Positions 944 to 62,200 of a stretch of 64,000 bases of DNA are shown here, piece by piece. Origin of the DNA: Spinacia oleracea. Lineage: Eukaryota; Streptophyta; Magnoliopsida; Caryophyllales; Amaranthaceae. The position numbers and the translations under genes are program-made. The DNA lies in contig NC_079490.1 of NCBI RefSeq assembly GCF_020520425.1, positions 3,782,001-3,846,000 on the forward strand, given 5' to 3'. Under the pieces are notes generated by a model that did no database searches, was not told the origin of the DNA, and saw nothing but the letters and a program-made list of their open reading frames with translations. The first letter of the stretch is position 1; each line of letters starts with the position of its first letter.

Positions 944-5366
<4,423 letters not shown>

Positions 5367-10517: not shown

Positions 10518-13493
<2,976 letters not shown>

Positions 13494-28562: not shown

Positions 28563-32247
<3,685 letters not shown>

Positions 32248-33361: not shown

Positions 33362-36300
33362 GTATGTACTTTCTTCGCTTATCTATTTTGCATCGATTTT
33401 TTTTTTTTTGGATTTTCTGTTGATTTTTGTGTGTTTTATATCGATTCAAAAAGTGTTTAATATGCAATTTTTTGATACAATGGATTCAAATTGTTAAGTA
33501 TGTTCTATTGGTTTATGTTAGCTTTCTTTTGGTGTTGTTTAATGTCTATGCCCACTTCATAATTCTACTTGAAATTCGTATTAGGGTTTGAGCCGTTTTT
33601 TCCTGTTATTTTGTTTCTTGAGATCAGTATTTTGTTGAAATGGTAGTGAAATTCTATGCGTAATGTTTTGATAACTTGGTAATGCTAAAATGGTAGTGTG
33701 GATTGATTATTTGGGAAGTTGCCATTGGATAAGTTATGGCAATTTTGGACTTGCTTTGGAATTTGAGCTTTGGTTTGTGTTACTTTGGATTGGTTTTCTG
33801 TATCGGGTAGTTTGGTGGGGATGTCATAAGGAGTGTGTTTGAGTGATGGATTTGATCACTGTATTTTGGAATTGCCTAGATCAATGATGCATTCTAGTTA
33901 AAGAAACACAAGCCAATTGTGAAGCAATCTGAGTTTCGTTTACTTGTAAGAAAATGAAATCTCAAGGCAAATCTTTTGTTGCATTTTTGTTTGGCTATTT
34001 CAATAATTCGACAGCTGCTCCATAGATAAAGATAACTGTATCATAGAATTTGTGAAACTTTGTTAGGATAATATGTGCGATGGCAGTTTGATTATTTTGG
34101 TGGAAAATGTTCTGTGGACCCTAACAATTATCAACCCCGTCAGGGATATAAAGAAAGAGAGTGCTGTAGAGTCCAGAGGGCAAGTTGCCTAATTTTCTGG
34201 TTGATGATTGATGATTCATTGTTATCTGTCACCTGCGTGTCCTGTTTACATGAGTACTTCTGTCTTCTACAGTTGCTACGGTGTAATTGTGTAAAAAAAC
34301 TTAGCACTCTTTTGATTGCGCTTGGTAGTTGATACATGTGAGACCGAGGGTTTAATTCTTCTTAAGTTTAAATTCAGTGAGGTATGGCAATTGAGGACTT
34401 GTTGTAAAATTTGAGCTTTGGTTTGTGTTTCGACGGGTTCGTTGCATTGTATAGTTTGGCGGGGATGTCATGAGGAGTGTCAGAGTGTGTTTAGGTGAAG
34501 GATTTGATCACTGTATTTTGGAATTGCCTAGGATGAATAATGCATTTTAGTTAATGAAATACAAGCCAATGGTGAAGCAATCCGAGTTTCGTTTACTTGT
34601 AAGAAAATGAAATGTCAAGGTCACATTTTTGTTGCAGTTTTGTTGGGTTATTTGTCCAATTTGACAGCTGCTCTATAGATAAAGATAACTGTATCATAAA
34701 ATTTGTGAAACTTTGTATGTGCGACGGCAGTTTGATTATTATGGTGGAAAATGTTCTGTTGACCCTAGCAATCACCAACCCGGTCAGGGATAAAGAAAGA
34801 AAGTGACTTGAACTTTACCAACTGTAGAGTCCAGAGGGCAAGTTGCCTAATTTTCTGGTTGGTGATTGATGATTCATTGTTATCAGTCACCTGTGTGTCC
34901 TGTTTACATGAGTACTTCTGTCTTCTATAGTTGCTACGGTGTAATTGTGTAAAAGAACTTAGCACTCTTTTGATTGCGCTTGGTAGTTGATACATGTGAG
35001 ACCGAGTGTTTAATTCTTCTTAGGTTTAAATTCAGTGAGGTATGGCAATTGAGGACTTGTAAAATTTGAGCTTTGGTTTGTGTTTCGACGGGTTCGTTGT
35101 ATCATATAGTTTGTCGGGGATGTCATAAGAAGTGTCAGAGTGTGTTTGGGTGAAGGATTTGATCACTGTATTTTGGAATTTCCTAGAATGAATGATGCAT
35201 TTTAGTTAAAGAAGCACAAGCAATGGCGAATCCATCCGAGTTTCGTTTACTTGTAAGAAAATGAAATCTCAAGGCCACATTTTTGCTGCAGTTTTGTTGG
35301 GCTATTTCTCCAATTTGACAGCTGCACCATAGATATTGATGACTGTATCATAGAATTTGTGAAACTTTGTTGGGATAATATGTGCGATGGCAGTTTGATT
35401 ATTTTGGTGGAAAATGTTCTGTTGACCCTAACAATTATCAACCCCGTCAGTGATATAAAGAAAGAGAGCCACTTGTACTTAACCAATAGTAGAGTCCAGA
35501 GGGTAAGTTGCCTAATTTTCTGGTTGATGAATGATGATTCATTGTCATCATTCACCCGCGTGTCCTGTTTATGAGTACTTCTGTCTTCTATAGTTGCTAT
35601 GGTGTAATTATGTAAAAGAACTTAGCACTGTTTTGATTGCGCTTGGTAGTTGATACATGTGAGACTGAGTGTTTAATTCTTCTTAGGTTTGAAAATTTAG
35701 TGAGGTATGGAAATTGAGGACTTGCTGTGGAATTTGAGCTTTGGTTTGTGTTGATGGGTTCGTCGTATAGTATAGTTTTGCAGGGATGTCATAAGGGATG
35801 TGTTTGGGTGACAGATTTGATCACTGTGTTTTAAAATTGCCTAGGATGAATGATGCATTTTAGTTAAAGAAACACAAGCTAATGGTGAAGCCATAAGAGT
35901 TTCGTTTATTTGTAAGAAACTGAAATCTTAAGGCCATATTTTTTTGCAGTTTTGTTGGGCTATTTCTCCAATTTGGCAGCTGCTCCATAGATAAAAATAA
36001 CTGTATCATAGAATTTGTGAAACTTTGTCGGGATAATATGTGCGACGGCAGTTTGATTATTTTGGTGGAAAATGTTCGGTTGACCCTAACAATTACCAAC
36101 GTTGTCAGGAATATGAAGAAAGCGAGTGACTTGAACTTAACCAACTGTAGAGTCCAGAGGGCAAGTTGCCTAATTCTCTGGTTGATAATTGATGATTCCT
36201 TGTTATCAATCACCTGTGTGTCCTGTTTATATGAGTACTTCTGTGTTCTATAGTTGCTATGGTGTAATTGTGTAAAAGAATTTAGCACTGTTTCGATTGC

Positions 36301-37944
36301 GCTTGGTAGTTGATACATGTGAGGGTGACTGAGTATTTAATTCTTCTTAGGTTTGAAAATTCAGTGAGGTATGGCAATTGAGGACTTGCTGTGGAATTTG
36401 AGCTTTGGTTTGTGTTTCGACGGGTTCGTTGTATGATTGTATCGTATAGTTTGGCGGGGATGTCATAAGGAGTGTCAGAGTGTGTTCGGGTGAAGGATTT
36501 GATCACTGTATTTTGGAATTGCCTAGATAAATGATGCATTTTAGTTAAAGAAACACAAGCCAATTGTGAAGCAATCTGAGTTTCATTTACTTGTAAGAAA
36601 ATGAAATCCTCAAGGCCATATTTTTGTTGCAATTTTGTTGGGCTATTTCTCCAGTTTGATAGCTGCTCCTTAGATAAAGATAACCTTATCGTAGAGTTTG
36701 TGAAACTTTGTAGGGATAATATGTGCGACGGAAGTTTGATTTTTTTGGTGGAAAATGTTCTGTTGACCCTAACAATTATCAACCCCGTCAGAGATATAAA
36801 GAAAGAGAGCGACTTGAACTTAACCAACTGTAGAGTCCAGAGGGCAAGTTGCGGAATTTTCTGGTTGATGATTGATGATTCATTGTTACCAATCACCTGC
36901 TTGTCCTGTTTACATGAGTACTTCTGTCTTCTATAGTTGCTACTGTGTAATTGTGTAAAAGAGCTTAGCACTGTTTTGATTGCGCTTGGTAGTTGATACA
37001 TGTGAGACTGAGTGTTCAATTCTTCTTAGGTTTGAAAATCCAGTGAGGTATGGCAATTGAGGACTTGATGTGGAATTTGAGCTTTGGTTTGTGTTTCGAT
37101 GGGTTTGTTGTATCGTATAGTTTGGCGGGGATGTCATAAATAGTGTCAGAGTATGTTTGGGTGAAGGGTTTGATCACTGTAATTTGGAATTGCCTAGGAT
37201 GAATGATGCATTTTAGTTAAAGAAACACAAGCTAATGGTGAAGCAATCTGAGTTTCGTTTACTTGTAAGAAAATGAAATCTCAAGGCACATCTTTTGTTG
37301 CATTTTTGTTTGGCTATTTCTCCAGTTTGACAGCTGCTCCATAGATAAAATAACCGTATCGTAGAATTTGTGAAACTTTGTCGGGATAATATGTGCAATT
37401 GCAGTTTGTTTATTTTGGTGGTGTTGACCCTAACAATTACCTTACCAACCCCGTCAGGGATATAAATAAAGAGAGCGACTTGAACTGAACCAACTTAGAG
37501 TCTAGAAGGCAAGTTGCCTAAATTTCTGGTTGATGATTGATGATTCATTGTTATCAGTCACCTGTGTGTCCTGTTTACATGAGTAATCTAGTTGCTATGG
37601 TGTAAAAGAACTTAGCACTATTTTGATTGCGCTTGGTAGTTGATACATGTGAAACTGTGTGTTAAATTCAGGGTAGTTGATATAGCCGGATTGCGCTTGG
37701 TAGTTGATTGCGCTTAGGTTCGAAAATTCAGGGAGGTATCTGATACGTAGTATTTGTTGAGTTATGGTTGTCTGGTTGTTACACGCGATTCAAATGTAGG
37801 TTTTAGAATCTTGATGTTATCCATTTCACATATTTGTTGCAATCCGGCTATATTATGTGAGTTGGAACTTGGAACCAGTTATACTATATTCCTTCGCGTG
37901 ATTTTAATGAAACATTCCACATACTTGGTTATCCTTGTGTGCAG
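33362..37944 (+). other. Inferred 5'-UTR intron of the L16 gene (4.6 kb)
   Basis: A likely leader exon (about 33210-33361, C-rich, ending TTTTCTCA) is followed by GTATGT. The acceptor CCTTGTGTGCAG at 37944 lies 19 bases before the ATG. This is inferred from splice consensus and from the absence of coding sequence between; transcript data would be needed. Almost the whole intron is the tandem array at 33730-37745. Confidence 0.5.
33730..37745 (+). repeat. Six-copy ~660-bp tandem array upstream of the L16 coding exon
   Basis: The phrase TTTGATCACTGTATTTTGGA or a close variant recurs at 33851, 34503, 35158, 35816, 36498 and 37169, giving periods of 652, 655, 658, 682 and 671. Every unit carries TTTGAGCTTTGGTTTGTGT, TTAGTTAAAGAAACACAAGC, GATAATATGTGCGA.GGCAG, GTAGAGTCCAGAGGGCAAGT and TTGCGCTTGGTAGTTGATAC. 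The last unit is more eroded. Minus-strand open frames of 100-245 codons recur because the units share a stop-poor frame; no domain is recognisable. Confidence 0.92.
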
Positions 37945-37963
37945 AGAGAGCTAGAAGTTACTG

Positions 37964-38647
37964 ATGGCTACTAGAGTGATCTCTCAAATCAGAAAACTTC
38001 CCCTTGTGAATGCACTGAGGCAGGCTAGCCAGCCATCTGCTACTCCTGGCTCATACAGCTCAAGATGGACCATGCCATCTACTTCTGTGGGTCCCACTTT
38101 GAAGAAAACCAGTGGTCTTACTCCTGCAATGGGGTCTCTATTTAGAAATTCGGGCTTAGGATCAGTTACTGCACATCCACGCTCTGGTTTTTCCGCGAGT
38201 ATTCCAAGTATGTCAGTATCTGTACGCTACAATTCAACATCAGGGATATACGCAAATGTTAGGAAGAGGTTTACTAAAGAACGCAGAAACAGAGGAGAAA
38301 TAAAGGGGGTTTCGGATAACGTTCTTTCTTTTGGTAAATATGCACTTCAGGCACTCGAACCAGCTTGGATCACATCTAAACAAATCACAGCAGGACAGCT
38401 GGCAATCAAGAGGAACATGCGCGGTGGGAAGCTTTTCATGCGTATATTTCCACACAAACCGATTTCTCTAAGGCCCGCTGAAACCCGTATGGGTCGAGGG
38501 AAAGGAAACATAGCATTTTGGGTTGCTGGTGTTAAAACTGGTAGAATGATTTATGAAATAAACGGAGTTCCGGAAAGTGTAGCGCGTAAAGCAATCACAG
38601 TTGCAGCATCGAAATTTCCTCTGAGAACCAGGTTTGTCAAATGTTAG
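37964..38647 (+). CDS. Nuclear ribosomal protein L16 (bL16), plastid-type core with mitochondrial-like presequence
   Basis: An uninterrupted 227-codon frame. Residues about 98-225 are a complete bacterial-type L16, the large-subunit protein next to the peptidyl-transferase centre and A-site tRNA. The core contains [60 protein letters not shown] and [11 protein letters not shown]. The block [13 protein letters not shown] is, as far as I recall, typical of plastid and cyanobacterial L16; plant mitochondrial L16 has a quite different sequence there. Residues 1-97 are an extension beginning [20 protein letters not shown], rich in Arg and Ser with almost no acidic residues and ending near VRYNSTSG. 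That resembles a mitochondrial presequence more than a plastid one, but dual or plastid targeting cannot be excluded. L16 is usually organelle-encoded in plants, so a nuclear copy is notable. It is divergent, intronless in the core and has its own leader, so it is not a recent plastid DNA insert. Confidence 0.88.
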
Positions 38648-49978: not shown

Positions 49979-51917
49979 ATACGTGATGAATCATATTTAT
50001 ATAGGGTATTCTAGGCTCATTTAGGTTGCATTTCTAGGCATTCGTCTCATTTTAGTTGCATTTAGAGTCATAATTGCATAAGTCGTCGTTATTGTACTCT
50101 ATTACGCTCCGTTTGTGTTTTCTTTGATATTTCAGGTGATTTTACAATCATTTGGGTGCTTTCGGAGTGTTTGGAGGTGGAACGAATGATCACCGGATGG
50201 TTTGAGTCGGAGACGAAGTGTTTGATCGGAGAATTGAGTTTTCCGGGGATGATTAACTCGATATATCGCTTGTGCATAGCTCGCAAGACCCCTCGTTGGC
50301 TCGCAAGACATCTATCGTAGGCTCGCTACATTTATCGTTGGCTCGCAAGATCCCTCGTTGGCTCGCAAGATCCCTCGTTGGCTCGCAAGACATTTATCGT
50401 AGGCTCGCTACATTTATCGTTGGCTCGCTACATCCATCGTCGTGCCTCGTCGCTTCATGGTTGCTTGCTTCACTAGGCCAGCGAGGGATGGCTCGCTAGC
50501 TCCCTCGCTGCCTCGTTGCTCGTCGCCTTGGCCTGCTATGCATCTCACTAGGCCAGCGAGGGATGGCTCGCTAGCTCCCTCGCTGCCTCGTTGCTCGTCG
50601 TCTTGTCTTGCTGCACTTCACTAGGCCAGCGAGGGATGGCTCGCTAGCTCCCTCGCTGCCTATAGCTTCGTCGTCTTGTCTTGCTGCACTTCACTAGGCC
50701 AGCAAGGGATGGCTCGCTAGCTCCCTCGCTGCCTATAGCTTCGTCGCTTGGCTTGCTACACACACGCACAGGGCAGCGAGGGATGGCTCGCTAGCTCCCT
50801 CGCTGCTCTACCTTCTTGCTAGTCGCTCATCATGATGCCAGCGAGGGATGGTGCGCAAGATCCCTCGCTGCCCATGCCTCGCCATCTATCTTCCCGTGTG
50901 CGCGGCTCGTGCTCGGGTTTGGCTGCCACATCATCGCTCCATCGACCAATCATCGACGACTTTTATTTTTATTTTCATATTTATTTAATTTTTTTTATTT
51001 TAGAAAATAGGAGCATATAAATACTCAAGAACTAATTAATTTCCCTCATGTTATTATTTTCCTAGAATTCTTTTAAACGTTCAGTTTTATTTTTCTCTCT
51101 ACACATTATTGAGCCCTAGTTCATTCCATTCAATTATTCAATATAGAGGTATTTTCATAATTCTTCTTGCTTCTCTTGCTTTGAATTATCGTTTCTTATT
51201 ATTGTTCATTATGAAATTCATTGTTAATTCATATTTCTTGCTTTGAATTATCGTTTCTTATTATTGTTCATTATGAAATTCATTGTTAATTCATATTTCA
51301 TGCTTGTTAATTCAATTATGAGCGAGTAGTTTTATTCTAGGGCTAAGTAAGGGAAGCCATGTTTATACCATGATTGATATGCATTAAAGTTCGTTAATTT
51401 ATAAATTATGATTGAGTAATTCCAATTGATTTGTTCTTAATCGTTGATTCATGTTATCGGCCAATTTCATGGATTAATTATCTAGCTAATAGGAATTAGA
51501 ATCGAAAGATCGTGTTTTTAGAGGCTTTGTACAATTGGCAATTCTGATTATGTTAGCGACCGTACTGCATATGTTGAATTGAAAGTGTTAAGACCCGACC
51601 GTAGGATTAGCATGTACTTTAATTACTCGGCCTAGTTTATTCGTTGTCGAATTGAATTGTGTTATTGGATTGGTATAAGCATGGTGAACCGAACAGACGC
51701 CCTAGACCTTTAATTCATTGATAAATTACGCATTTTTATTATTGTTTTAGCTTTAGTAGTTAATACTCAAACTCAACTTTCGTTATTGAAATAGTTCGTA
51801 TAATTGGGCAAAAACTAATAGAACTTGTCTCCCAGTGGGATCGACCCGTATTTGCTAAGTATCTGCTAACAACAGACACCGTGCACTTGCGGTATCACTT
51901 TTTAATTCATCAATACG
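49979..51917. mobile_element. Solo LTR (gypsy-like), 1929 bp, with 5-bp target duplication
   Basis: The LTR spans 49984-51912, starts TGATGAAT and ends ATTCATCA (perfect 8-bp inverted ends), flanked by ATACG on both sides. The right end contains CTCCCAGTGGGATCGACCCG and GACACCGTGCACTTGCGG, a style typical of plant Athila/Tat gypsy LTR ends. No internal element region is present, so it is a recombination relic. It includes a GC-rich tandem block (50278-50930) and a 67-bp duplication near 51165-51300 (CTTGCTTTGAATTATCGTTT twice). Confidence 0.88.
50478..50872 (+). repeat. Six GC-rich hairpin repeats (~73-bp period) inside the solo LTR
   Basis: Units start at about 50478, 50553, 50626, 50699, 50773 and 50838. 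Most contain the palindrome-forming core CAGCGAGGGATGGCTCGCTA then GCTCCCTCGCTG, whose arms CAGCGAGGGA and TCCCTCGCTG pair; the last unit is altered. Upstream (50278-50440) a second short repeat, TCGTTGGCTCGCAAGA/TCGTAGGCTCGCTACAT, is tandem with a period of about 20-23. Confidence 0.85.
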
Positions 51918-53316: not shown

Positions 53317-54635
53317 GGCCCTGTTTGGAAATTGGCTGTTGGCTGTTGGCTGTTGGCTGTCGGCTATTTTACTTTGCTATTTTGACTGGCTGTTCAAGTT
53401 GGCTGCTTTTGTTGGCTGTTTGACTATGGATTGGTTACAAATATGTTTGGTAAAATCAGTTGTTGGCTGTTGGCTGTAGCTATGTAAAATGACATTTAAG
53501 GACATTTAATGTCTTTTATTCATTTTTCGATACATACTATACTGTGTATTGTGTACAGAGTAAAACATAATTACAAATAAATAGAATATAAATTAAAAAT
53601 AAATTACTTTATGCAATAGTATTAATAAATTATTATTTTAATTAATAATTACGGAGTAATAATTAATAACTAATAATAAATAATCAATGATTAATAATTA
53701 ATAATTAATAATAATTAAATTAAATTAATAATAATTATTAATTATTAATTATTAATTATTAATTAATAATTAATGATTAATTATTAATTAATTATTCACT
53801 TTTAGTTATTAGTCATTAATTAATAGTCCGTAATTATTAATAATTCATTATTAATTATTAAAAATTATTAATTATTAATTATTAATTATTAATTATTAAT
53901 TATTAATTATTAATTATTAATTATTATTATTAATTATTAATTATTAATTATTAATTATTAATTATTAATTATTAATTATTAATTATTAATTATTAATTAT
54001 TAATTATTAATTATTAATTATTAATTATTAATTATTAATTATTAATTATTAATTTAATTATTAATTATTAATTATTAATTATTAATTATTAATTATTAAT
54101 TATTAATTATTAATTATTAATTATTAATTATTAATTATTAATTATTAATTATTAATTATTAATATTAATTATTAATTATTAATTATTAATTATTAATTAT
54201 TAATTATTAATTATTAATTATTAATTATTAATTATTAATTATTAATTATTAATTATTAATTATTAATTATTAATTATTAATTATTAATTATTAATTATTA
54301 ATTATTAATTATTAATTATTAATTATTAATTATTAATTATTAATTATTAATTATTATTTATTATTTATTAATCATTAATTATTAATCATTAATTATTAAT
54401 TATTAGTTAATTAGTAAAAAAAAAGGACAAAAAAGTAATTTAGATAGTGAAATGCCAAAAGCCAACTCCAAAAAGCTAGTGTTACTAGCTTTTCATTTTT
54501 GGCGGAAAAGCTGGCTTTTCAGCAAGCTAAAAAGCCAGTTACCAAACATATTTTTTTGCTGTTTGACCAGATTAAAAAACCAACCGCCAAAAGCCAATCA
54601 AAAAGCCAGCAAAAAGCCATTTGACAAACAAGGCC
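53317..54635. mobile_element. Non-autonomous DNA transposon carrying a heptanucleotide satellite
   Basis: 1319 bp with ends GGCCCTGTTTGGAAATTGGC and the complement of CCATTTGACAAACAAGGCC, flanked by AAA (53314-53316, 54636-54638). Copy A of the host segment shows the empty site GGTAAAGTATC. Subterminal arms are TTGGCTGTTGGCTG-type repeats at left and AAAAGCCAGC/CCAAAAGCC at right, complementary to each other. No transposase. Confidence 0.8.
53690..54415. repeat. (ATTAATT)n heptanucleotide satellite
   Basis: A period-7 array of ATTAATT, near perfect from about 53855 to 54350 with a few phase slips (for example near 53925, 54053 and 54163), and degenerate edges. About 70 clean copies. It sits inside the transposon at 53317-54635. 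Confidence 0.92.
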
Positions 54636-55470: not shown

Positions 55471-56269
55471 TAATATTATGCCTAAATCACGTTGTAATTA
55501 GGTAAAGAATCTTGTCAGTTTCTCTTTATAACGCGCGAGTTTGCTTTTGTGACTGTTTTGGACGAATTTGTGTTAATTTCGTCTTAATAATGTTTATATT
55601 ATTTGAGAAAATAGGTTGTAATAATGTTTATCGTTGTGTAGGAAATAGGCCGTTGTAATTTTGTAGAAGAGATGTCGTGTAATTTTAGATGAGTATTAAC
55701 GGAGCTACTCACATCAAGCGAGTTTGTATTCCTCCCGTGATTAGGTGCCGATACATAATAAAATGCACCATGCCTTACTTGATTGATTTAGATTGGACTA
55801 TTAGAGACGAACGAGTAGACGAGATTCGAGATTCTCGGGCAACTAATATGCAACTTTAACATTTTAAAAAATCAATACCTGAAATGCAGCGAATGGGAGC
55901 TTGGGTGGTTAAGAAAGGGTTAACTGTTGGAAATTATGGAAGCAAGTATTTCATCAGTAGGTTCTAAGTGACTAAATGAACAAGTCATATAGTTCCGTAC
56001 CTCACTATTTGTTATGGAGTAGTTTTGTATGCTTCTTTTGTGCCTTTTGTTTATTTTGTGTTCCTTGAAAGTTATGCTATTCTAATGGTTTCTAGCTACA
56101 TTACTTGCTCAAATCGATATTATTTTCTTATCAGTTTTATTGTTTTTATTAGGTTCATTAGGTGTTGGCATTTTTATTGGTCGAGGGAAACCCCATTATT
56201 CCATGGGTATCAACAAGTAGGGACCTAGCAAGAGATTTAGCTTAGTTTTCAATACCTAGAGAGTTGCTC

Positions 56270-59200
56270 ATGGCAACAAGAGCTATCTTGCGCCGGAGGA
56301 GAGCCCTTGCCAGTGCGTGGACTCAACCCAGTGGCTCGTTCCGTTGTTTTTCGAGTTTTGAGCATGGGCAATCATGTTCCGCTCCCCACTCACAGGATTC
56401 AAGTTTGGCTGTTGTTCTTCCTTCTCTTGATTCTGATTCAAGGAACGAAAGGAAATCATTTTCATTAACCAAAGATAAGTTACAACTTTTTTCCTCCGTT
56501 GGGATTCTACGCAACAATTTGAGTGGGAGCTCAAGATTAGTTGATGAACGCCTGAACTATAGATCGTCTTTAGGAGCGGCCTGGAGGTCACAACTTTTGC
56601 GCTATTCTTCAACAGCAACATCAGGTCAGCCAGAGTTTCGGAGCGGTAATGAAAAAAGTGAAGAAAAGATTGCTACTCAAAAGGAAGCTTCACCTGAAGA
56701 ATGTGATCAGGCAGTTGAAGGCCTCAGTTCAGCTAAAGAAAAAGCGAAAGCTAAGCAAATGCAAGAACTTCGTAAGAGTGGAAAATCAATACTGCGAAGA
56801 GTGTGGGCTACACTTTTAGGAATCGGGCCTGCTTTGAGGGCTGTTGCTTCAATGAGCAGGTAAAACCTTTTTAGTTTTTACTAAATCCCTGTTTGACAAA
56901 GTTGTCTGTAGATTTACTTTCATGGATCAATTTTCCGTTACTGTAGAGCGGATTGGGCTATTAAGCTTGTACACTGGAAGGATGAATTTGTATCTACAAT
57001 GAAGCACTATTGGTTGGGCACAAAATTACTTTGGGCTGATGTTAGAATAAGCTCGAAGACGCTGGTGAAGCTTGCTAAAGGCAAGAGTCTATCAAGGAGG
57101 GAGAGACAACAACTCACCCGCACTACAGCTGATATCTTCAGGCTAGTTCCAGTTGCAGTTTTCATTGTTGTCCCATTCATGGAGTTCTTGTTGCCAGTAT
57201 TCCTGAAGTTATTTCCCAACATGCTGCCATCAACTTTCCAACACGAGATGAAAGAACAGGTAATTGTCAATTTGTCATGATGACGTTTGCAAGTAATATG
57301 GTATTGTCACAGACTTGTCGGAGTTGTCGCTATGTCTCGTGCTCATGCTCTCCGTTTAAATTTATTTTTGTTACGGGGTTGTAAATTGGAAGTCAGACTG
57401 TTGTGAAATACTATAGAAAAACTATGCAACTTGTTCTCATGTTTTTACTTTCTTGCATGGAAGTATGTTTTAACTTTTAATGAACTTGATAATTATAATG
57501 TTTTCCCTAAATCAAGAAATTACCTTTACTCTTAATTGTGCATAGTAAAAGCTTGTTTTCTGTTTGATTGACTTCTTTAGTCTGTTTTGTTTTTGGTCTG
57601 TTCACTTATCTTTATATAGCAGCTCCATACTAGCTATATGAACAGGCTGTCTGATTTCTTGTTCCTCAATACAGAAGTTTATTGGATCTTCTTTCTATCT
57701 GTCTTGTTTACTGTTACTTGTGTTGAGGATCATAGTATTGTATGAGCAGCACATGGTTTATTGAAGAAACACTCTTTAACTGAGTCTTGAGCTATCAGCT
57801 ATGATTTATCCCTAGTAAATAAGGCTATCTATTTTTGAGAAAGCGGAAATGTATTATGTTTTTCTCATGTATGAGGGTTGTTCAAGTGTGTATTAATTAT
57901 CGTTTTACGTACTATGATTGTTGTATCCTGTGAATGGGTCTATATGTTACTCTCTTTGTCCCATAAAATTTGCTATTATGTGGAAACTGAAACACGAGAG
58001 CTTGTCATTTGCTGCAATGTGTATAATTTGAATCTTTACTAGTAGCAACAACTGGGTTTTGGAATTCGATTATCCTGTTTAGAAGACTAAACATATGGTC
58101 TAAGGATCTCAATTTATCTGCTAAACTTCTTCAGGTCAAGTTGTGCTACATACAGTGCCATACTTTCAACACTGTCACTCTGTTTTGCTCTTACTCTAAA
58201 CACTGTCTTTTTAGGCCTGTTATCCTATATCTTTGGTGGAATTAATTTATTAAGAATTTAGGAATATATAGGATAAGAGAATAGTTCTCACGAAAATGGC
58301 ACAATGCTTTGTTTCTTAAACGTTTTACTACTGGCACTTTATCCTTCAGGGAAATCCAAAGGTGAAGTTATGTTGTAACTGTAGAATCATCACATTCTAA
58401 ACCGCTGCAGTTCTTGTCTATTATAATAAAGAATTAAAAACCCCATAAAATGAACACAAAAGTATACCATAGTATTGCTTAGTACAGAAAAGCTCTATGT
58501 GCAACTGCATTTTTTTGTTCATACCAAAAATATCATTGGCATTTGATCGCCTCAATTTGGTTTCCAGTTTGCCTTTTGCATATTCTTACTACTACATTTC
58601 CCAATGAGATATGTTAGTGCAGCAGGTTTCCTATTTTCCACTTGTTTGTTCGGCAGATGGGGAGAGTAGTGTGAGCTTCTAGTGGTGACTTGTTGTTATA
58701 CCATGTAATGCAATTTGAAATTCAATAAGATGTCTATGCGCTCATACTTGTAACTTTTCTTATAGGAGGAGATGAAAAGGAAACTAAATGCAAGAATAGA
58801 ATATGCCAAGTTTCTTCAGGATACAGTGAAAGAAATGGCAAAGGAAGTCCAGAATTCTCGCAGTGGAGAGATTAAACAGACAGCAGAAGATCTTGATGAA
58901 TTTGTAAACAAAGTAAGGAGGGTATATGTGTTCATCTTGTAAGAATGTTTCCGGATTTACTTTAGTTTCCTTGATTCAATCGTTACTTTAACAGGTTAGG
59001 AGGGGTGAAGATGTTTCTAATGAGGAAATTCTGGGTTTTGCTAAGTTGTTTAATGATGAATTGACTCTTGATAACATTAGCAGGTTGGTGGGTCTCCTTT
59101 TTCTCTAGACTGTGTATGACCTGTTTTATATTTTTTTCCAGTTCATCTGTCTTCCTTTGTTTTTGTGACGTTGATTTGTTTTGTTCAGGCCTCGATTGGT

Positions 59201-62200
59201 AAATATGTGCAAATACATGGGTATTAGGGCATATGGAACAGATGCATTTTTACGTTTTATGCTTCGAGACAAGCTTCGGAAGTAAGTTACCATACTTACC
59301 AATTCATTATTTGTTTATTATAAGTACAAGCCACTTAAATGTATTGGGGTAATATATCTTATGTTAGGGAAGTTGTGCATAAATTTTACAGACTAATACA
59401 TCGAACAAGTTTAGAGCACTAGCTTTGAAACTTCCTTAAAGTAGATTTTAGGAGAGCCATAGTCAGACAATTCTTGAATCTTTTCTGTAAAGTTGTTCTA
59501 CACTTTAAACTTGTTGAATACAAATTTTGTAGATAAAGGAAAGTTTAACTTTTTTATTCTGGTGTATTGTGCCTAAATTTATTTTATTCATAATTAAGTT
59601 GATCATTCTTTAAGAAGTGAAAATTATTTTATGGTATTTTAGCTTTAGATTTCAACCTTTCACCTCTCCCGAAAAAGTTTAAAATAATAGGAGGGGGAGG
59701 GAAGAATCCAGATTTGAGTTAGGCGCATGAATGTGATGAATAGTAATGCTCCCTATGAATCCAATTTGATTTATGTGAATTCCAACAATATTTCTATTTC
59801 AGGTATTTGGTCGGTCAAACCTTTTCTGTCCTGCTATCACTCAACTTATCTCATATTTAGTGTCACATCTTGAATCCTTTTTTGCAGTATGTGACTATGT
59901 GTACCCTTTTTTACTCTTGGATTCCTGATTTGTTGAATTTTTCCAAGTAAAGTGAGATTGTGGACTCGTCTTTATTTATCTGATTAATTTTGTTTTTCCT
60001 ATGCTTTAACATTTACAATGGTGCAATTCTGCAGTGGCTTTGTTGTCTATTACTCTTATTAAAAATAAGAGTATTGTAAATTCATCATCATTGTTGATTG
60101 GTGAACAATGTTAATTTTCTATTATTCAGTTGTTCAATGTAATAGGGAGACACTAACTACCTTCTATTTGAAGGATTAAAGAGGATGATAAGATGATACA
60201 AGCCGAGGGTGTTGAGTCTCTTTCAGAGGCAGAGCTTCGTCAAGCATGTAGAGATAGAGGTTTACTTGGTTTACTCTCTGTTGAAGAAATGCGTCAACAG
60301 GTTTGTTCACAACTATACCAATTCATTTTCTCCCACATTAATTGGTTTTACACTGCTTATGAGTTGTGAATTTGTGATGATATAATTGTAATCTAACCAT
60401 TTTTTAATGGTAGCAGTGCCTTTTTACTCATGTTACCTGGCTGAAATGATAAAATTTTGAATCCATACAAATTGCTAATCACTAGAATAATTTATGTTCA
60501 TCTATATTTTACATCCTGGTCCGTAGTACTTGTTTTTGGCCAATGTGCATTCATTCAAGTTGTCTTGTATGTGCAGCTGCGTGATTGGCTGGACTTGTCT
60601 CTCAATCATGCTGTTCCGTCATCTCTTCTAATTATTTCCAGGTATGCAATGTTATACTTGGTAATTCTTTTGGTTTTTGGATTAGGCTGTGTTAAAACTG
60701 GCTAAGGCTACTTCCCGACTTTATCCTCTGTTCTGTACTTCTTTTGGCAGAGCATTCAATGTGTCCGGAAAAATCAAACCCGAGGAAGCTGTGGAATTTG
60801 CTATTTCTTCTTTGCCAGATGAGGTTGTCGATACCATTGGAGCTACATCTTTGCCTTCTGAGGATTCTGTTTCAGAAAGGAGGAGAAAGTTAGAGTTCCT
60901 TGAAATGCAGGAAGAATTAATCGAGGTATAAGTCTCTTTTCCTCCCTCCAAACACTTTAGGTCTTAAACTGTACAATTTTACTGGCTGTTCGTTGACCTC
61001 ATATCTCTTCTCAACCTTCTGAACAAAACCATTCCTCTAAAACTTGCTTCATTTGTCGGAGGAAAGTTTTTTTAAATTTGCTTTAGTGTTGATTTTAAGA
61101 CTCTATAAGTATACTCATGTTATAACTTACTAAATTGTAGGAAGAGGAGAAGAAAATGAAAGCAGAAGAAGAAAAGGCGAAATTGAAGGAGTCTATTGTT
61201 AGCGAAAAGGATGTTGCCTTGGAAGAGATGGTGGATGCAACTACCAGGGACGCACAAGAATATGCAAAGGCTGCATCATCAGATACCGATGATCAGCTTT
61301 GTAAGCTCAGTCGTGCATTGGCTGTTCTGGCTTCAGCATCTGTAAGAATATTTTGGTGCAGCATCTTTTTATGATGGAGTCTCTTATGTTACGGAATACG
61401 GAGTACTAATTTTGACTTCGGTTTCTTTTACTCTCTTTAGTCAGTGAGCAGGGAACGGGAGGAGTTCTTAAGACTTGTTAATAAGGAGGTTAGTGAAAAC
61501 TTGGAACTAATTAATTACACTACTGACACCACTGGTTTTCTTTAAACAAGTATTGTCACCACTTTAGGATGATACAGATTTACTTCTTTAATCTCTTTTC
61601 CAGATCGAGCTTTACAATACTATGGTGGATAACGAGGAAAAAGAGGGAATAGAGGGGAAAGTTGAAGCTGAGAAGGCGTACAGAGCTGCTCGGAAAGTTG
61701 ACGAAGAGGAGTCGGATGATACTGCTCAAGTTTCTTCAGCGCTGATAAATAAGGTAATATAGGATCTAAATAAGTTTTGTTTTCCTGATCCATCTCTTAA
61801 TTTAGCTGATATTGTTTCATTGTTTGATGGATCTTCATATTTCTTGTACGGGTTGTACTTATTGAATTACTGGGAATTTTCTGTTTTAATGTATCAGGTG
61901 GATGCTATGCTTCACAAACTTGAAAAGGAAATTGATGATGTGGATGCAAAGATCGGTGATCAGTGGCGATTTCTTGACAGGTATGCTATTAAGAATAGTA
62001 GTTGGGGAAATAGCAATAGAGCCAACCTTCACAAGGTTTATTTCTATGCCACGTCATCATTATACAAACCTCATTTCTAACAAACCTTATGCTTACAATA
62101 GACAAATCTATTTAAAGGTTTATGTCGGGACCCACGAATATATCATCGTACTCACTTACTCACATAACAAATAAAATATTATTTTACTTTCTTTACTTTA

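Follow-up and report, generated by a model that had tools for sequence, protein, structure and literature searches.

A nuclear L16 gene of plastid origin that probably serves the mitochondrial ribosome

The closest described system is the plastid-like nuclear rpl16 of Silene conica (Sconica_v3_30744-RA), presented in Genome Biol Evol in June 2026 (PMC13308715, available part). According to that text, spectra of the Rpl16 protein came from the two mitochondrial samples (8 and 3), with 0 in the chloroplast and leaf samples (two each); the mitochondrial rpl16 is lost and the plastid rpl16 retained. Its authors state that the mitochondrial gene appears functionally replaced; mitoribosome assembly lay outside their tests. 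In our literature search this paper was the sole description found of a plastid-like nuclear rpl16 with a mitochondrial location, and the remark of an earlier note on the DNA studied here, that no description for L16 was known, is outdated by it. In Gypsophila vaccaria, which belongs to the family of Silene, the mitogenome table has rpl5 as the sole large-subunit gene and the plastome table has rpl16 (PMC12521989). Mitochondrial rpl16 is listed for a cactus, Oxyria and Reynoutria (PMC10468871, PMC11594269, PMC10702355), and an rps3-rpl16 overlap is given for Bougainvillea and other Caryophyllales (PMC12323158), each time in the parts of these papers that were available. For the loss of mitochondrial rpl16 in Gnetales, chloroplast- or cytosol-derived genes have been suggested as possible replacements, and for Zostera functional replacement has been raised as a possibility (PMC8317393 and PMC5435185, cited jointly for both groups); the available passages of these accounts name no plastid-derived L16.

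Here we describe an L16 gene found in a stretch of 64,000 nucleotides, which we call the window. We are fairly confident that its product is a mitochondrial uL16 of plastid origin which replaces the product of mitochondrial rpl16, and hence a genuine case of the already described kind. The features of the gene are collected in Table 1.

Table 1. Features of the L16 gene, with positions in the window.
Feature	Position	Strand	Basis
Presumed 5′ untranslated exon, pyrimidine-rich, GTATGT donor at its end	33230 (start approximate)..33361	+	sequence reading, inference
Presumed spliceosomal 5′ UTR intron, 4.6 kb, GTATGT ... TGTGTGCAG acceptor	33362..37944	+	sequence reading, inference
Tandem array inside the presumed intron, about six repeats of roughly 660 bp each	33716..37669	+	repeat families D1-D12, neighbours mostly 640-683 apart
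N-terminal leader, residues 1-97, candidate processing site R88-Y-N-S-T	37964..38254	+	composition, motif rule
L16 core, residues 98-227 and stop, plastid-type	38255..38647	+	profile, structure, tree and codon comparisons

Identity and plastid origin of the L16 core

The plus strand carries a single intact open reading frame at 37964..38647, which starts with ATG and encodes 227 amino acids in 227 codons, the coding part being free of introns. Because an in-frame TAG stands at 37952-37954, four codons 5′ of the ATG, this is the earliest start possible in the exon. At the base composition of the window, the probability of 227 codons without a stop by chance is about 5e-8. Pfam PF00252 (Ribosomal_L16) matches residues 101-225 with 8.6e-39 and 133 bits (cut-off 27.9; profile positions 4-132 of 132), and NCBIfam TIGR01164 (rplP_bact) scores 139.3 bits (cut-off 76.85; profile positions 5-125 of 126). 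Both models thus exceed their curated cut-offs over nearly the full domain and the protein is a ribosomal protein uL16, which bears out the complete L16 frame claimed by the earlier note. In the comparison with solved structures, chloroplast L16 chains were the best matches with 159 bits, and the L16 chains of plant mitochondria (6xyw, 9evs) reached 73 bits. The chloroplast chain is presumably that of spinach.

Of the two motifs that had been read as a plastid and cyanobacterial signature, RPAETRMG occurs in 10 of 12 cyanobacterial rows and in both rows from plant plastids; the other two cyanobacterial rows have RAAETRMG, and the first R is exchanged for K in 8 Firmicutes rows. QALEPAWIT is present, barring single-letter variants, in the Firmicutes rows of the alignment too and is not plastid-specific.

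As plastid reference we used L001, a 4.4-kb plant plastid stretch in a GTDB record labelled Solirubrobacter sp. CPCC 204708 (NZ_QPKJ02000013.1). We take the label to reflect contamination, since the stretch has the plastid order rps3, rpl16, rpl14, rps8, infA (gene names that we presume from the translations) and its L16 is near-identical to the chloroplast chain. It was the one plant-plastid-like locus among the 80 loci kept of at least 557 relatives found. A search of viral contigs gave no additional plastid sequences; in the plasmid collection the listed records (10 of 62 and 20 of 60) were bacterial, and L001 as query had no match there.

The L16 tree that had been proposed as a check of the plastid origin was built with 39 rows. 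Besides the window, these were 7 sequences derived from the PDB, 27 of the 80 loci, and 4 loci of plasmid records. The 27 comprise L001, 12 loci with cyanobacterial titles or genera and 14 hand-picked others, so that 53 of the 80 were left out; the labels spinach, Thermus and E. coli on PDB-derived rows are our assumption. The window sequence joined spinach plastid L16 and L001 with 98/98 support, the plastid uL16c of PDB 28jw was next to join (97/87), and the enclosing cyanobacterial and plastid group had 96/90. The window thus sits with the L16 of plant plastids and is separate from the cyanobacterial and other bacterial rows; because its branch is long (2.18), the exact spot beside L001 (82/0) is without meaning. 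The core is identical to plastid L001 at 79/126 positions, to spinach plastid L16 at 77/126 and to plant mitochondrial L16 at 48/126. This tree, with the test described next, shows that the core is plastid-derived, as the earlier note had suggested.

Descent from the mitochondrial lineage was considered separately and rejected. Forcing the window into a clade with mitochondrial L16 (two rows) was worse by 14.85 log-likelihood units (p-AU 0.0009), and the eight-residue insert found in both plant mitochondrial rows is absent from the window.

Selection on the gene and its surroundings

In the 126 codons aligned with plastid L001, the first, second and third codon positions are 75, 79 and 51% identical, with pN 0.22 and pS 0.63. 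Of the 43 columns in which at least 90% of the other rows agree, the core keeps 35 and differs at 8, and the indels relative to plastid L16, an insertion of two residues and deletions of two residues and of one, all keep the frame. The synonymous distance to the plastid gene (dS) is about 1.4, a rough value near saturation and a mere hint of age. This pattern is that of a fast-changing gene under purifying selection and not of a decaying insertion. Plant nuclear genomes are rich in plastid insertions, and one may ask whether the locus is just another of these numerous pieces, non-functional and open in frame by chance. A pN far under pS, in-frame indels within an open reading frame of 227 codons, and the fact that only the rpl16 main exon of the 4.4-kb L001 is represented in the window all oppose this. 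With purifying selection visible at the codon positions a dead plastid insertion is unlikely, and we strongly disfavour this reading, to which we give next to no credence.

When L001 was compared with the window, the rpl16 main exon alone matched (38325-38628 by blastn, 73%; 38261-38638 by tblastn), and nothing convincing was found in the window for the L001 intron region or for the four further open reading frames tried. In plastids, rpl16 usually begins with an exon of three codons, followed by a group II intron.

The intact L16 frame stands amid nuclear genes. Directly upstream lies a WDR5-like beta-propeller WD40 gene (28656-32247, plus strand) in at least two parts, the last after a long intron; PF25175 matches its first part. 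A terminal inverted motif, tactccctccgtccct ... agggacggagggagta, is found at 31241-31396, in an element which we take to resemble a Stowaway-type MITE. Judged by these surroundings, with a WDR5-like gene split in two, a presumed intron in the 5′ UTR, a MITE-like repeat and no further L001 plastid sequence in the window, the L16 gene is located in nuclear DNA.

Further elements were seen in the window. The copies of the tandem unit at 33716-37669 are 60-98% alike by sub-block, and GC skew is strong at 34-38 kb. A gene for an LRR receptor-like kinase in two open reading frames (LRR part and kinase part) occupies 10518-13371 and is immediately followed by (AT)60. A zinc-binding dehydrogenase (PF00107), perhaps of the alkenal reductase type, is represented at 4618-5025 by its C-terminal part. 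A multi-exon gene at 56264-59300, which we take to be LETM1-like, has an Arg-rich, mitochondrial-looking N-terminus, and its first exon is without Pfam match. An AATTATT satellite of about 112 copies extends over 53628-54409, and at 50279-50806 two tandem arrays lie side by side, their units containing GCTCGC and their periods being 62/82 and 73/148. Rfam and tRNA scans across the window gave no match.

Leader and destination of the protein

The earlier note had also described an Arg/Ser-rich extension of about 97 residues. Its length and its Ser content (20 of 97 residues) stand, and the Arg content is moderate: 7 of 97, below the 11.5% of the core. The leader additionally contains 3 Lys and no Asp or Glu, the first acidic residue of the protein appearing not before position 106, and it has basic residues at 4, 10 and 11, hence three within the first 11. 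Neither the leader against the PDB (no match better than E 0.21) nor a tblastn search for leader-like stretches elsewhere in the window (none convincing, best other E 5.4) gave a relative. Amphipathicity over the first 30 residues was equalled by 42% of shuffles in 18-residue windows, and over the first 20 residues by 12, 14 and 27% in windows of 11, 12 and 14 residues. As the helix is not clearly more amphipathic than shuffled sequences, the leader alone cannot choose between mitochondria, plastids or both.

A protein targeted to plastids, where it would be a nuclear backup or a replacement of plastid rpl16, would agree with the plastid-type core seen in the tree, and a chloroplast transit peptide could equally be Ser-rich, free of acidic residues and start with MAT, as this leader does. 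The basic residues at 4, 10 and 11 fit this less well. With 79/126 identities the core is moreover over-diverged for a conserved part of the plastid ribosome, whereas the plastid L16 of spinach and L001 are near-identical, and the S. conica spectra all came from mitochondrial samples in the available part of PMC13308715, so that we consider an exclusively plastid destination very improbable. Dual targeting to mitochondria and plastids would be in line with the length of the 97-residue, Ser-rich leader; presequences of dual-targeted proteins are similar to chloroplast transit peptides in their length and net charge, and an RX(F/L) cleavage motif is frequent among them (PMC4986872, available part). 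The core is diverging fast (branch 2.18) and the S. conica chloroplast spectra were 0 (PMC13308715, available part), both of which speak against a second site of action, and we regard dual targeting as unlikely. R88-Y-N-S-T resembles the -2R/-3R rule as given in the accessible text of PMC4986872, yet the residue preceding S is not F, Y, I or L. The charge of the leader and the R88 site lean towards mitochondria, a preference that is suggestive and not decisive. Together with the equivalent gene of Silene conica, on which this assignment mainly draws, a mitochondrial role of the window L16 is probable. The amphipathicity result, the lack of the eight-residue insert that plant mitochondrial L16 has, and the changes at 8 of the 43 highly conserved columns count against it.

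Apart from the question of targeting, the changed sites of the core were compared with mitochondrial L16. The window differs from two agreeing plant plastid rows at 44 sites; at 28 of these the mitochondrial residue differs as well, and the window shares it at 8/28 (2.5 expected), or at 9/32 on a poorer alignment. Bacterial rows match the mitochondrial letters to an equal or nearly equal extent, with 8/23 for Sulfobacillus, 9/30 for each of two actinobacterial rows, and 8/25 and 8/26 for two alphaproteobacterial rows. Since some bacterial rows equal the 8/28 of the window, the numbers are no evidence for mitochondria-specific change, and an adaptation of these sites specific to mitochondria was rejected. 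The exchanges S to R and S to N (RMGSGKGS to RMGRGKGN), which coincide with mitochondrial letters, are an anecdote.

Proposed origin and relation to known systems

For a mitochondrial uL16 of plastid origin the following path can be proposed. The gene derives from a copy of plastid rpl16 that entered the nucleus of a flowering plant, where the main coding exon alone stayed recognisable; the group II intron and the neighbouring plastid genes can no longer be recognised around it. The nuclear copy would then have gained the long targeting leader as well as the spliceosomal intron and the 5′ untranslated exon that we presume. The L16 protein would be made in the cytosol and imported into mitochondria, its leader may be cut near residue 88-90, and the mature protein would enter the large mitoribosomal subunit as uL16m in place of the mitochondrial rpl16 product. 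That the gene is expressed, and its product imported, cleaved and assembled, with loss of mitochondrial rpl16, is what we would expect mainly from the Silene conica gene.

The window gene may be the published plastid-like rpl16 of Silene itself or an ortholog of it. More tentatively, we can imagine that it represents a lineage outside the reported one, which we think rather doubtful; there would then have been either an independent second takeover of L16 from plastid to mitochondrion, or an old transfer that long coexisted with mitochondrial rpl16 before the latter was lost. How the gene is distributed among related species that have kept or lost mitochondrial rpl16 would reveal the order of events.

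The position of L16 in the ribosome is near the peptidyl transferase region. If the proposed reading is true, a ribosomal protein has given way to a homolog whose line split from its own before there were plastids or mitochondria, and the case tests how far ribosomal parts are interchangeable. It also tests whether a plastid-resident gene can become nuclear and mitochondrial without serving the plastid first, a direct path which may have needed several barriers to be overcome almost simultaneously (PMC13308715, available part).

The plant mitochondrial uL16m, which is mitochondrially encoded (PDB 6xyw, 9evs), shares with the window protein the family and the presumed place in the ribosome; it differs in that it falls, in the tree, on the proteobacterial side and has the eight-residue insert. 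S13 came from a nuclear gene encoding a plastid protein, which had been duplicated within the nucleus. Such a donor distinguishes L10 from our locus as well, and S13 (Arabidopsis) and L10 (Brassicaceae, monocots, Silene) are like our reading of the window in that a plastid-type protein takes a position in the mitoribosome (PMC13308715, available part). The donor gene of L16 still resides in the plastid genome, which makes both transfer and retargeting necessary. Rpl16 (uL16m) of Silene conica, compared by its published description and not by sequence, is equally a nuclear gene for a plastid-type L16; in that species the protein was detected in the mitochondrial fraction only (PMC13308715, available part). 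Most likely, the window contains a genuine case of the swap already known from Silene conica.
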